Shown here piece after piece: positions 18,490 to 24,931 of a stretch of 52,247 nucleotides of DNA. Each line of letters opens with the position of its first letter. Position 1 is the stretch's first letter. Source of the DNA: Sorangiineae bacterium NIC37A_2. GTDB lineage: Bacteria > Myxococcota_A > Polyangia > Polyangiales > Polyangiaceae. The translations under genes were made by a program, and so were the position numbers. The notes beneath the pieces are model-generated. The model did not search any database and was not told the DNA's origin. It saw only the letters and a program-made list of their open reading frames with translations. Where the stretch lies: assembly GCA_002085155.1 (NCBI GenBank), contig NASX01000015.1:1-52247 (forward strand), given 5' to 3'.

Positions 18490-19128
18490 TCAGTTGAGCT
18501 TGGGCGGTTCGAGCGGAAGGTAAGTCTTGCGGAACTCGGGGAGCGCTTCGAGCCGCGCGCAAAAGGCTTCGAGGCGCGGCGCGAGATCGAAGAGCCGAAA
18601 ATCCGGATGCGCATCGGTCGCGAAGCGGAGCGCAGTGCCGACGATGATGTCTGCGTGAGAGATGCGCTCGCTCAAGAAGCCGCTCTCGGGTGCCCTCTGA
18701 TCGAGCCAGCGCGCGGAGTCCTGGAGCTGGGTGCGGATGCGTTCCAGCCAGGGGCGGCTCCGCGCCTCCGGCGCGTGGAAGTTGAGCTCATAGACGCCGT
18801 GCACGGCCTTGTCGGCGAGACCGGCGGCGACGCCGATGATTTGGCGCGCTTTCAGGCGATCCTCAGGGCTCTCGGGCAGGAGGACCCGCTGCTTCGGCTC
18901 CTGCTCGTCGAGGTAAGCGAGGATGACGTGACTATCCATGAGCAGCTCCCCGCTCGGCAGCCGCAAGGTCGGGGCGCGGCGGAGGGGACTATACTCGGCG
19001 AAGCGCTCTGCATCGCCCACGGTGCGAAGCGCGAGATTGTCGTAGGACTTCCCGTAGAGCTCGAGCGCGATCGCGACGCGGCGAACGAAGGGCGAATCGA
19101 GCATCCCAATCAACAAATAGTCCGTCAC
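18490..19128 (-). CDS. Glutathione S-transferase family protein
   Basis: 212 residues. The N-terminal thioredoxin-like domain has MLDSPFVRRVAIALEL (SPF-VRR near the usual catalytic Ser/Cys position), RAPTLRLPSGELLMDSHVI (cis-Pro then the Glu/Asp-Ser glutathione-binding pair), and an all-helical C-terminal domain with the ADIIVGTAL N-capping segment. Conjugation or reduction with glutathione is known for the family; the substrate here is unknown. Its ATG overlaps the stop of the MATE gene by 4 bp (ATGA type), so the two are translationally coupled, consistent with a detoxification and export pair. Confidence 0.88.
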   Translation of the reverse strand: MTDYLLIGMLDSPFVRRVAIALELYGKSYDNLALRTVGDAERFAEYSPLRRAPTLRLPSGELLMDSHVILAYLDEQEPKQRVLLPESPEDRLKARQIIGVAAGLADKAVHGVYELNFHAPEARSRPWLERIRTQLQDSARWLDQRAPESGFLSERISHADIIVGTALRFATDAHPDFRLFDLAPRLEAFCARLEALPEFRKTYLPLEPPKLN

Positions 19129-20522
19129 ATTGCCTCCGTTTCTGAGAGCGAGAGGGGAGCGATGGACTCATCGTCCCCGAGCTCCGCGAGCTTCTTCTTC
19201 GTGCGGAGCGCGATGATCGCGAGGCCAATTGTCACCTCGACGAAGATCGCCGCCCAGGCCCCCGACGCCCCCATCGTACCCTGCACGCTCCAAAGATAAG
19301 TGAGCGGAGGCGTCACGATCCAGGCGCAAAGCACCGCGCACCAAGCCACGAAGTGGAAATCGCCGAGGCCCCGCAGGGTGCCCTTGAGGATGTTGTAGGC
19401 GGCGTTCGCCATCTGGATGCTAGCGGTGCCGATCAGGGCGGGAGTTGTCGCGGCGACGACCGTGGGTTCGTGGGTGAAGGCGCGGGCGATCGGCAGGCGA
19501 AGCAGGACACAGGTGGTGCTGAAGAGGACCGCGAAGCCGACAGCAAGCCAGACGCCTGCCTGGTTGATGCGGCGGATGAGCGAGTAGGAGCGCGCCCCGA
19601 AGGCCTGCGCCGTGAGCACCGAGGCAGCGTCCGAGAGCGCAATGAGCGGTAAGAACGCGAACAGGCTGACCTGGAGCGTGATCTGATGCGCCGCAACGTG
19701 CGCCGAGCCCGCGTAGGAGAGGAGCAGGGGGACCGCGGCGAAGGCCATCATGTCGAGCACCCGCTCGGCGCCCATCGGTGTTCCGAGGCGCAAGAGAGCC
19801 ATCGCTTCCGCGTTCGAAGCTCTCCAGGCGCCCTTCCAGAGCCCGACCCGACGACCCCCAGACGCGCCGAGCGCCTCTTTGGCGGCCATGAGCAGAACGA
19901 GCAGCTCGACGCCGTGGGCGATGGCGGTCGCCAGGGCTGAGCCATCCGTTCCGAGGCCGAACACGAACAGGAAAATGGCGTTGAGAGGCACGTTCACGAC
20001 GTTCGCCACGATCGCCGCACGCATGGGGGCGCTGGCCCAGGATTGTCCGGTGAGCCATTGGCCGAGCGCCGCGCTCGCGAGGATCGCCGGGATGCCGAGG
20101 CCGCGGATGGCCGCGTAGCGAGCCCCTTGGGCACCAGTCTCCGGATCTGCCGCCATCCAAGGCAAAAGCGCCGCGCTTCCGAGCGCGACGAGGAAGCTGA
20201 CGAATCCGAGTCCGAGCCCGAGCCGGAGAAAAACCCCGAGCAAGCGATCGATTTCCGCCTGGTCCCGTCGACCCACCGCCTGCCCTACGAGCATGCGGCA
20301 GGCGGAGAGCACCGATTGGCCGAAGGAGCTCACGGTCAGCACGAACATCGAGCCGAGCCCGACCGCGGCGAGGGCTGCCTCCCCGAGCCTTCCTACAAAA
20401 AGGGTGTCGACCACGCTCATCATGCTGAAGGAGACGAGCTGGAGCACGAGAGGCCCGGCGAGCTTCAGAAGGGCACGCTCGGGGGCTTTCGACCAGGAAG
20501 GAGCGGAAGGAGAAGAGGACAC
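19125..20522 (-). CDS. MATE family efflux transporter
   Basis: 465 residues with about 12 membrane helices in two repeated halves. Family hallmarks include the N-terminal LKLAGPLVLQLVSFSMMSVVDTLFVGRLGEAALAA segment (about 20-54, two helices) and the matching second-half opening RLGTPMGAERVLDMMAFAAVPLL. MATE pumps export cationic drugs or metabolites using a Na+ or H+ gradient. GTG start at 20522, with a weak RBS. First gene of a MATE-GST pair. No adjacent regulator; the upstream ~230 bp to the next gene contain no other recognisable feature. Confidence 0.93.
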   Translation of the reverse strand: MSSSPSAPSWSKAPERALLKLAGPLVLQLVSFSMMSVVDTLFVGRLGEAALAAVGLGSMFVLTVSSFGQSVLSACRMLVGQAVGRRDQAEIDRLLGVFLRLGLGLGFVSFLVALGSAALLPWMAADPETGAQGARYAAIRGLGIPAILASAALGQWLTGQSWASAPMRAAIVANVVNVPLNAIFLFVFGLGTDGSALATAIAHGVELLVLLMAAKEALGASGGRRVGLWKGAWRASNAEAMALLRLGTPMGAERVLDMMAFAAVPLLLSYAGSAHVAAHQITLQVSLFAFLPLIALSDAASVLTAQAFGARSYSLIRRINQAGVWLAVGFAVLFSTTCVLLRLPIARAFTHEPTVVAATTPALIGTASIQMANAAYNILKGTLRGLGDFHFVAWCAVLCAWIVTPPLTYLWSVQGTMGASGAWAAIFVEVTIGLAIIALRTKKKLAELGDDESIAPLSLSETEAM

Positions 20523-22953: not shown

Positions 22954-24231
22954 ATGGAGGAGGCAACTACGACATGGAGCCGGGAGGCGCTGCTTCGCGC
23001 CCCGCGTCCGCGCCAGCTCCCGCTCGCTCCGGTCGCCGATCCTCCGCGGCGCAAGTTGCCTCTGCTCGCCGAGCCGACGGAGGTCGATCGCGTCCGACCG
23101 ATCTATTGTGTCTGGGAGATCACGCTCGCTTGTGATCTCGCCTGTCGCCATTGTGGCTCTCGTGCGGGAAAGGCGCGTCCGAGTGAGCTCTCGACCGAGG
23201 AGGCGCTCTCTCTCGCCGATCAGCTCATCGAGCTCGGCATCCGCGAGGTCACGCTGATCGGCGGCGAAGCGTACCTGCGGCCCGACTGGCTCCAGCTCGT
23301 CGAGCGCTTCGCGCGCTCGGATGTGCTCGTCTCGATCACGACGGGCGGGCGCGGTTTGACCCCCGAGCTCGCGCGAGCCGCGAAAAATAGCGGTCTTCGC
23401 GCCGCGAGCGTCTCCCTCGATGGCATGCGTGAGGTGCACGATCGGTTGCGCGGGGTCCAGGGATCGTTTGACGCGGCGCTCCGCGCGATGGACGCGATCG
23501 GGAGCGCAGATCTCGAGCTCTTCAACAACACACAGATCAATCGTCTCTCCTATCCGGACTTGCCCGAGCTCCTCGAGACGATCGCGGCGCGCGGCTCGCG
23601 CGCTTGGCAGATCATGCTGACGGTGCCGATGGGGCGAGCGGCGGACGAACCCGAGGTGATGATCCAGCCCTACGAGCTCGTCGAAGTGTTCCCGCTGCTC
23701 GCAACGTTGAAGCAGCGCGCCGATGAGCTCGGTGTGCTCGTCTGGCGCGGCAACACCCTCGGCTATTTTGGGCCCTACGAGAGCATCCTTCAGAGCCATC
23801 TGCCGAGCGGGCACGGCTCGTCCTGTGGCGCGGGTCGTTCCACGATCGGTATCGAAGCAGACGGGACCATCAAAGGCTGCCCCTCGCTCGGGACGAAGAA
23901 GTGGACCGCGGGGAACATTCTCGACGCTCCTCTCGAGGACATTTGGACGAAAGCAGAGCCGCTCCGTTACACACGAACGCGCACCGAGGCCGATCTCTGG
24001 GGCTATTGCGCCGAGTGTTACTACCGAAAAGTCTGCAAAGGCGGGTGCACCTGGATGAGCGACATGCTGCTCGGGCGCCCCGGAAACAATCCCTACTGTC
24101 ACCACCGGGCCCTCGAAATGAAGGCCCGCGGCCTCCGGGAGCGAGTCCAGAAAGTCGAGGCCGCTCCCGGTCAACCATTCGATCAGGGGCTCTTTGAGCT
24201 GATCGTCGAACCCCTTGTCGCGGGCACGTGA
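22954..24231 (+). CDS. Radical SAM/SPASM maturase-like protein
   Basis: 425 residues. The radical SAM 4Fe-4S motif is C60-x3-C64-x2-C67 (CDLACRHC), followed by GGEAYLRPDW (about 103-112) and the barrel segment SVSLDG. The C-terminal SPASM region has seven cysteines (C291, C309, C352, C355, C361, C365, C382; YCAECYYRKVCKGGC), as in enzymes carrying two auxiliary clusters, which mostly modify ribosomally made peptides or proteins. ATG 22954 has GGGAGG 5-10 bp upstream. The gene is directly followed, same strand, by a Gly-rich protein with repeated PxYGA motifs, the natural candidate substrate. No separate leader-binding domain is seen; the ~45 residues before the barrel are Pro/Arg-rich. Confidence 0.92.
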   Translation: MEEATTTWSREALLRAPRPRQLPLAPVADPPRRKLPLLAEPTEVDRVRPIYCVWEITLACDLACRHCGSRAGKARPSELSTEEALSLADQLIELGIREVTLIGGEAYLRPDWLQLVERFARSDVLVSITTGGRGLTPELARAAKNSGLRAASVSLDGMREVHDRLRGVQGSFDAALRAMDAIGSADLELFNNTQINRLSYPDLPELLETIAARGSRAWQIMLTVPMGRAADEPEVMIQPYELVEVFPLLATLKQRADELGVLVWRGNTLGYFGPYESILQSHLPSGHGSSCGAGRSTIGIEADGTIKGCPSLGTKKWTAGNILDAPLEDIWTKAEPLRYTRTRTEADLWGYCAECYYRKVCKGGCTWMSDMLLGRPGNNPYCHHRALEMKARGLRERVQKVEAAPGQPFDQGLFELIVEPLVAGT

Positions 24232-24313
24232 GGAGGAGCTCTTGAGCTCACCGGAAGATGGGGCACCTGGGGGCGCCCGAGAAAGTTCTACTGAAGTCTA
24301 GAGTGAGGATGTT

Positions 24314-24931
24314 ATGAAATTGGTACCATGTGCTTCTTGTTCTCGTCACATTGCTCTCGAAGAGACGGCCTGTCCTTTCTGTGGTGCGCCCCATGAGGCG
24401 GGTGTGGAGGCGGCGCAGGCAGCGGTGGCAGAGCGCTGGGAGTCGACGACGCGCCTCGGCCGCGCGGCGATGATTGCGCTCGGGGCGCTGGCGGTGGCGC
24501 CGGCGGCCTGTGGCGGCGAGTCGGACTCGGGAGGAACCGGTGGCCGCCAGGGGACAGGTGCTATGGCGAATGCCGGCGGCGCTGAAGCCACAGGAGGCGT
24601 GGGGGCGAGCAGTGGCGCGGGCGGAGATCAGGCGTCACCGGTCTACGGCGCGCCGGCCATCGGAGGACAGGGCGTCGTCACGGGCGGTCAGGGCAACGGC
24701 GGCGGCACGCCTTCCGACGGCGGAGGATCTCCGGGAGGAGGCGCGTCCCCCGGCGGAGGCGCGTCCCCCGGCGGCGGCGCAGCGGGGATCGGCGGAGACC
24801 TGGTCGCGCCCGTCTATGGCGCGCCCGCGGCCGGTGGGCAGCGGACGGACGTGGGATCGGGAGGCGGTGGCGTGGACGTCCCGATCTACGGTGCCGCGCC
24901 CATCGGTGCCCATAAGATCTTTAGGCGCTAA
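24314..24931 (+). CDS. Zinc-ribbon, Gly-rich protein with three PxYGA motifs; candidate radical SAM substrate
   Basis: 205 residues in four parts: an N-terminal zinc ribbon (C6-x2-C9 and C20-x2-C23, CASC and CPFC); a linker; a hydrophobic segment ending in a cysteine (AAMIALGALAVAPAAC, to Cys66), either a membrane span or a lipobox-like site after a cytoplasmic head; and a ~140-residue Gly/Ser/Ala-rich tail. In the tail PVYGAPAIGG (109-118), PVYGAPAAGG (166-175) and PIYGAAPIG (190-198) recur, each preceded by Gly-Gly and a short stretch. An in-frame repeat ASPGGG lies at about 138-155. I infer, not see, that the 83-bp-upstream maturase modifies the Tyr-containing motifs. GAGG precedes ATG 24314. 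Confidence 0.7.
   Translation: MKLVPCASCSRHIALEETACPFCGAPHEAGVEAAQAAVAERWESTTRLGRAAMIALGALAVAPAACGGESDSGGTGGRQGTGAMANAGGAEATGGVGASSGAGGDQASPVYGAPAIGGQGVVTGGQGNGGGTPSDGGGSPGGGASPGGGASPGGGAAGIGGDLVAPVYGAPAAGGQRTDVGSGGGGVDVPIYGAAPIGAHKIFRR

Follow-up and report, generated by a model that had tools for sequence, protein, structure and literature searches.

What would a radical S-adenosylmethionine (SAM)/SPASM enzyme do to a neighbouring protein in which every tyrosine is followed by glycine? The question is raised by two forward-strand genes on contig NASX01000015.1 of Sorangiineae bacterium NIC37A_2, of which positions 1–52,247 were analysed (this whole stretch of 52,247 nt is hereafter the window). 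The first gene (22954–24231) encodes a PlpX-like radical SAM/SPASM maturase of 425 aa, a putative splicease, and the second, on the same strand after a gap of 82 bp (24314–24931), a putative substrate protein of 205 aa. PlpXY is reported to excise tyramine, C8H9NO (about 135 Da), from XYG (PMC10533398). On the strength of sequence comparison we propose that the window pair is, in all probability, a splicing system of the PlpX kind, which would excise tyramine at the xYG sites of the second protein.

Profile searches assign Radical_SAM (77.1 bits; Pfam cut-off 29.5) and SPASM (33.6 bits; cut-off 21.5) domains to the maturase, and its top NCBIfam matches are TIGR04103 (nif11-class maturase 3) and TIGR03913 (GDL motif maturase). 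The radical SAM motif and the seven SPASM cysteines reported in a first-pass annotation are present: the CxxxCxxC motif (Cys60, Cys64 and Cys67; 23131–23154) and the SPASM region from Cys291 to Cys382 (23824–24099; Cys291, 309, 352, 355, 361, 365 and 382) supply ten cysteines, all of which align with cysteines of PlpX, and the two enzymes are 48% identical over 381 residues. The PlpX sequence used was taken from a putative locus (L238), one of the matches in 7 of the 27 genomes in the family of a Xenococcaceae genome; it was taken as PlpX because neighbouring precursors carry FPIRPLYGLPI and AVAAMYGVVFP, consistent with the published PlpA-derived tags (PMC10533398). This enzyme and one from Nostoc, the substrate of which matches Nif11, both exceed the TIGR04103 cut-off (824.4 and 853.1 bits, respectively). 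PlpX has been placed in IPR026482 (PMC11002830). In a quick tree (120 rows, drawn from a midpoint root), most maturases of the window's phylum fall apart from the PlpX/TIGR04103 and GDL clades, in more than one group. A structure model built from 33 sequences (mean predicted local distance difference test score, pLDDT, 76.8) has SkfB (6efn) as its closest fold, with template modelling (TM) scores of 0.59/0.65. Residues 1–47 have pLDDT under 50 and no confident fold, and for this reason the N terminus is not read as a recognition element of the kind found in enzymes for ribosomally synthesized and post-translationally modified peptides (RiPP recognition element, RRE); beyond these residues the protein is radical SAM/SPASM fold, and no winged-helix RRE domain was found on the maturase, an RRE elsewhere in the genome not having been sought. 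The genome of the window encodes one full maturase and the remnant of a second. The remnant, on a separate stretch (L004; G000:C142:4952–5104, minus strand), lies in a 214-codon frame, lacks most of the SPASM region, and has DLWGYC joined directly to a copy of the maturase C-terminal end (ARGLRERL...FEVIVEP).

The second gene also has the parts first described for it, a four-cysteine ribbon, a hydrophobic stretch and three tail motifs. The zinc ribbon CASCSRHIALEETACPFC, proposed here as a docking module, runs from Cys6 to Cys23 (24329–24382). A hydrophobic, signal-like stretch from residue 51 ends in Cys66 with a lipobox-like PAAC (24464–24511), and a glycine-rich tail follows with three xYG sites: PVYGAP with Val110 as the X residue and Tyr111 (24638–24655), PVYGAP with Val167 and Tyr168 (24809–24826), and PIYGAA with Ile191 and Tyr192 (24881–24898). 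Cys6, Cys9, Cys20 and Cys23 of the ribbon and Cys66 behind the hydrophobic stretch are its five cysteines, and Tyr111, Tyr168 and Tyr192 its sole tyrosines, with glycine next to each (3/3 xYG). Shuffling the tail gave at least three P-x-Y-G in 0 of 20000 shuffles, and elsewhere in the six frames of the window P-x-Y-G occurs once in each of four stop-to-stop frames, of 27 to 81 codons, and more than once in none. A whole-genome search for a V-Y-G-A DNA pattern was set aside as uninformative (57 matches against 37 in a reversed control).

The two families track one another in the window's phylum, a statement that sequence searches support. Maturase homologues were sought at E<=1e-60 in 377 genomes of that phylum, with up to four candidates scored per genome, and were found in 142. 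From these, 80 stretches with 87 maturase genes were taken, mostly best-scoring matches and hence leaning to closer relatives; with that of the window the number of genes is 88. Same-strand open reading frames (ORFs) with a four-cysteine ribbon near these genes, chosen without regard to YG, numbered 107, and YG follows the ribbon in 105 of them; YG accounts for 187 of 214 tyrosines in the subset of 85 that has Cys-x-x-Cys-x-Arg/Lys-His, whereas in the maturases it accounts for 54 of 893. For 75 of the 88 maturase genes a same-strand ribbon ORF was found no more than 2.2 kb away, and six further ribbon ORFs lie on the opposite strand, YG being present in all six. An initial pattern search gave a neighbour with both ribbon and YG for 72 of the 88. 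The profile search recovered a leader for ten of the 16 misses (L099 being read through L349, which belongs to the same contig); four of these leaders are encoded opposite the maturase, and that of L083 has PIYS where YG would stand. By profile on both strands, 82 of the 88 thus have a leader in the stretch, 81 of these with YG. Near two other maturase genes (L110 and L116) there is a YG neighbour with no ribbon seen and a contig end close by. A profile of the ribbon alone finds the ribbon in 68 of the 80 stretches, some of the missed ribbons being longer. Also of interest are variant substrates in four stretches (L088, L094, L096 and L098), which have a single PYGCVFPD core followed by Cys, an xYG combined with flanking cysteines.

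The leader models used here (A2, a profile of ribbon plus hydrophobic stretch, and a profile of 99 segments) were derived from ribbon genes picked with YG present, and their segments stop at the presumed lipobox Cys, before the YG part, save for one of the 99 segments that includes a YG. With up to 17 candidates scored per genome, A2 matched 117 of the 377 genomes at E<=1e-4. Co-occurrence, which the first-pass annotation proposed to look for in other Myxococcota, was assessed in the window's phylum: at a leader threshold of E<=1e-6 all 87 genomes with a leader also have the enzyme, the full table being 87 with both, 0 with leader only, 55 with enzyme only and 235 with neither (Fisher 7e-48, counts and value alike ignoring shared descent). 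At E<=1e-4 the corresponding numbers are 101, 16, 41 and 219. In the 5.0 Mb genome of the window itself, the substrate described here was the only leader-profile match at E<=0.1 among the best 150 of 223 first-look candidates.

The tail tyrosines were at first taken as the modified sites within a PxYGA motif. That these tyrosines are the likely sites is borne out by YG in 105/107 neighbouring ribbon genes and in 63/63 others described below, and YG does track with the maturase; the motif itself is not strictly PxYGA, since Pro occupies position -2 in 162 of 359 xYG sites. Across these 359 sites, from 169 substrates, the X residue is Ala (86), Leu (73), Pro (38), Arg (38), Met (29), Val (24), Glu (18), Ile (17), Asp (13), Lys (11) or one of five others (12), and is never Thr or Gln. 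Sites of the xYG type are found beside maturase relatives on unrelated scaffolds as well: QPVYG in Thiothrix, RPYG or QPYG in DUF1843 peptides of Azospirillum and Aureibacter, and ALYGLPP in a Nif11 substrate of Nostoc. In a candidate Eremiobacterota genome (L217), a 179-aa protein encoded just upstream of the maturase has five AQPVYGAP repeats, with no ribbon seen.

Many substrate-like genes are not beside a maturase. Stretches of this kind, 58 in number and 2.5 to 4.8 kb long, were chosen by hand from 12 genomes that belong to the window's family or to its order, and a maturase search in them gave no match. Their 63 ribbon-leader ORFs all contain YG, to which 135 of 156 tyrosines belong, and leader genes number up to 27 and 26 per genome after rescoring (up to 150 candidates scored per genome). 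Some substrates have a folded domain past the YG site, for example OmpA in L322 (48.3 bits). Homologues that are not neighbours had been named at the outset as a finding that would speak against the pairing; they do occur, in these 58 stretches, yet the retention of YG in 63/63 genes favours a single enzyme that serves many substrates in trans.

Where would the product reside? The earlier suggestion of an envelope-anchored product, as opposed to a small secreted peptide, agrees with the position of the Cys. Among neighbouring substrates, 98 of 107 have a hydrophobic stretch followed by Cys, and among dispersed ones 54 of 62 do (2 and 4 in shuffled sequences); the Cys box is lipobox-like in 91 and 53 of them, and 318 of 319 YG sites in 152 substrates lie past the Cys that ends the hydrophobic stretch. 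For this last reason ribbon and signal together may be a leader that is cut by lipoprotein signal peptidase, an enzyme encoded in the genome of the window. We regard a lipoprotein processing step on the substrate as somewhat favoured. The alternative is that the substrate is no lipoprotein at all but has an uncleaved membrane anchor, with the ribbon inside, the tail outside and Cys66 incidental; we give it roughly one chance in three. It gains from the window protein itself, in which the hydrophobic stretch (Kyte–Doolittle hydropathy 1.62) ends in a non-canonical PAAC box with Pro at -3, a point against lipoprotein processing, and from the genes without the hydrophobic-plus-Cys pattern as scored, 9 among the 107 neighbours and 8 among the 62 that are dispersed. 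A ribbon-bearing N-terminal region of about 45 residues ahead of a signal sequence is moreover unusual, which again suits an uncleaved anchor. The regular placing of Cys in both sets of substrates, far above shuffled expectation, speaks against it.

The role of the ribbon can be approached from other phyla. In Azospirillum and Aureibacter, a related maturase has a similar ribbon at its own C terminus and the substrates are small DUF1843 peptides. These GDL systems (TIGR03913 with DUF1843 peptides) thus resemble that of the window in having a related maturase, a ribbon of the same kind and an xYG, placed near the DUF1843 start; they differ in that the maturase bears the ribbon, the small substrates have none, and YG is sometimes YA or YM. 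In Tropicibacter the maturase has its ribbon at the N terminus. The Tropicibacter oceani plasmid stretch (L224) places this maturase next to a second radical SAM gene, a trypsin-like peptidase and an M23 peptidase, with no clear YG substrate seen in the stretch. Outside the window's phylum, 8634 ORFs taken from 86 surroundings were searched with the ribbon profile; four scored above threshold, all of them maturases, and in each of four entire plasmid records the single leader-profile match at E<=0.1 lies within the maturase gene. When 398 genomes from the phylum to which Thiothrix belongs were searched with TIGR03913, up to three candidates being scored per genome, three matches were obtained at E<=1e-90: one with a fused ribbon, one with a ribbon in another frame just downstream, and the Thiothrix enzyme without a ribbon. 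The ribbon ORF directly downstream of a ribbonless maturase match (L355:5185–5445) may be a standalone docking protein or the result of a frameshift. No C-terminal ribbon was found in the window maturase, in 87 maturases of its phylum or in 80 mostly cyanobacterial maturases (one of them truncated), and the profile detected no ribbon at E<=1e-2 in the 80 mostly cyanobacterial stretches. A ribbon on either partner, where cyanobacteria have PlpY, is what a docking module would predict, and we consider it likely that the ribbon is a docking module for the maturase. It is perhaps portable between substrate and maturase, with the proviso that short ribbons converge easily.

An ordinary cytoplasmic metal-binding domain with no part in maturase recognition would also account for a ribbon in this position, and is in our view unlikely without being far-fetched. 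Ribbons of the CxxC...CPxC type are widespread, and weak matches to several generic Pfam ribbons were obtained; the ribbon of the window substrate is below every Pfam cut-off, the top match being DZR_2 at 15.6 of 27 bits. The YG context could, moreover, suffice for recognition, and leader-independent tyramine splicing is reportedly the topic of a 2024 paper, to judge from its title. An ordinary ribbon is less easily reconciled with the exclusive recovery of maturases by the ribbon profile outside the window's phylum (four in 8634 ORFs), with the leader-profile matches inside maturase genes in the four plasmid records, or with the nearly invariant His behind the first Cys pair, Cys-x-x-Cys-x-Arg-His being present in 78 of 101 substrates.

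As to the chemistry, the tail tyrosines might undergo another radical reaction with no excision of tyramine, namely a crosslink with a loss of 2 Da, an epimerization or a hydroxylation. The loss of 2 Da was the chemistry expected in the first-pass annotation, and it gives way here to excision of C8H9NO, the reaction reported for PlpX, the nearest characterized enzyme among those compared; with 48% identity to PlpX and XYG retention, it was rejected as first choice. The fold is common to SPASM maturases such as SkfB, PqqE and SuiB (16–22% identity in the fold alignment), which make other products, and this favours a different reaction, as do the scores below both curated family cut-offs, the failure to find a PlpY in the stretches searched, and the Y-A and Y-M sites in GDL relatives. 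The YG of 105/107 and 63/63 substrates, which fits the XYG rule, and the closeness to PlpX tell the other way, and we rate another radical reaction at the same tyrosines as improbable.

A number of observations weigh against assignment to PlpX-kind splicing. The window maturase falls short of both curated cut-offs, with 473.4 bits against 725 for TIGR04103 and, over profile positions 11–394 of 477 only, 447.2 bits against 591.75 for TIGR03913, and was for that reason filed under neither family; the Aureibacter enzyme is also under the latter cut-off (535 of 592). In the quick tree it stands on its own long branch (0.7). Like PlpXY/PlpA of Pleurocapsa sp. PCC 7319, the window system has a radical SAM/SPASM enzyme, all ten cluster cysteines and a proline-rich xYG (PVYGAP; PLYGLP in PlpA), whereas PlpX is reported to act together with PlpY and to have substrates with Nif11-type or nitrile-hydratase-type leaders, and the window substrate bears a zinc ribbon and a Cys in a lipobox-like setting. 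No Nif11 match was obtained on the window substrate at E<=0.1. In the 80 stretches and in the window alike, no PlpY-like ORF reached E<1e-3 (lowest E 0.73), in a search of surroundings only, of limited sensitivity with its 56-aa query, and a PlpY profile likewise gave nothing below 1e-3 in the 80 stretches of the window's phylum; PlpY was found at E<1e-3 in 30 of 85 cyanobacterial stretches, against 0 of 81 here. Some GDL-type substrates have Y-A or Y-M in place of Y-G, and one substrate of the window's phylum carries PIYS, so that YG is not absolute. For four of the 88 maturase genes (L086, L095, L119 and L134) the stretch examined yielded no leader gene. Of the 377 genomes, 16 combine a weak leader match, at E 1e-6 to 1e-4, with no enzyme match at 1e-60, 41 have the enzyme and no leader match at 1e-4, and shared descent is, as stated, left out of the co-occurrence figures.

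Several related observations may be recorded. A PlpY search of 195 genomes of the phylum of L222 gave no match and is uninformative, there being no positive control and the set being other than the window's phylum. PlpX-clade substrates in L209, L210, L212, L213, L217 and L222 start with an LPR/LPK element resembling the PlpY core, the profile not being significant; as a candidate PlpY-like N-terminal element in the precursors of Thiothrix, Thiofilum and a candidate Eremiobacterota genome, it is visible and its support is weak, the best profile E being 0.38. GDL-kind substrates with PLYAAP, PLYAVA or MYMATV (L356, 2427–3722; L142, 4593–4757) may be unmodified paralogues or reflect a relaxed site rule. 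Near the leaderless maturase of L086, an ORF (dn323, 94 aa) ends in KYGAPPMRK, the rest being unlike a ribbon substrate.

That the two genes are chance neighbours and the tail low-complexity filler, as glycine-rich tails common in high-GC genomes might suggest, is hardly credible given the family co-occurrence (87/0/55/235), the YG retention (105/107 and 63/63) and the absence of three P-x-Y-G from all 20000 shuffles, and chance adjacency was rejected.

Around the pair, the gene upstream encodes a VWA-like protein (below the Pfam cut-off), and two DUF4398 proteins lie downstream, with an OmpA domain in the second of them. No adjoining protease or peptide exporter had been seen in the first inspection, and this holds: no known RiPP protease was found among nine neighbouring ORFs scanned, though 2.4 kb upstream a MATE-family transporter (19125–20522) is encoded on the opposite strand. 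A leader that is itself a lipoprotein signal sequence might account for the lack of a leader protease. Further along, a poly-gamma-glutamate system protein (TIGR04332; 29874–31079, minus strand) scores 290.8 bits, over the cut-off.

We hypothesize that the ribbon would dock the substrate on the maturase, which would excise tyramine at the xYG sites, and that the substrate would then be exported and processed at Cys66 as a lipoprotein, a step that would strip ribbon and signal sequence as the leader. The product would be a lipid-anchored tail, located in the envelope or at the cell surface, that bears electrophilic ketoamides. Spliceotide products have been described as protease inhibitors (PMC11117315), and alpha-ketoamides bind catalytic serines reversibly (PMC8154582). 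One possible use of the product would be the reversible covalent capture of proteases; we advance this protease-trap role tentatively, and adhesion or crosslinking through the ketones are other conceivable uses. The X residue would correspond to P1, and the Pro-Val and Pro-Ile of the window sites would suit elastase-like enzymes. Since X residues vary between sites, a panel of surface protease inhibitors is suggested.

The chemistry proposed is of a known kind, that of the spliceotides, and what looks new is that the substrates combine a ribbon with a lipoprotein character, that they are dispersed and that the ribbon changes place; in the open-licence literature we found no account of a splicease substrate with a zinc ribbon, and Scott et al. 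(2022) and Richter et al. (2024) may already describe such systems. It is possible, though we would put it a little below even, that a few spliceases per genome serve in trans a set of scattered envelope lipoproteins, through a portable ribbon (on the maturase in other phyla) and a self-removing leader, giving a surface coat of protease-trapping ketoamides with the X residue setting the target. What had been an orphan gene pair becomes a testable case of backbone splicing in a protein, not a peptide, with a defined enzyme and with three sites and a mass that are predicted. If the dispersed families are real substrates, an unusual post-translational change of the backbone would extend across many envelope proteins of these bacteria, and the ribbon would offer a means of substrate recruitment distinct from the RRE, of use in directing splicing for protein engineering.

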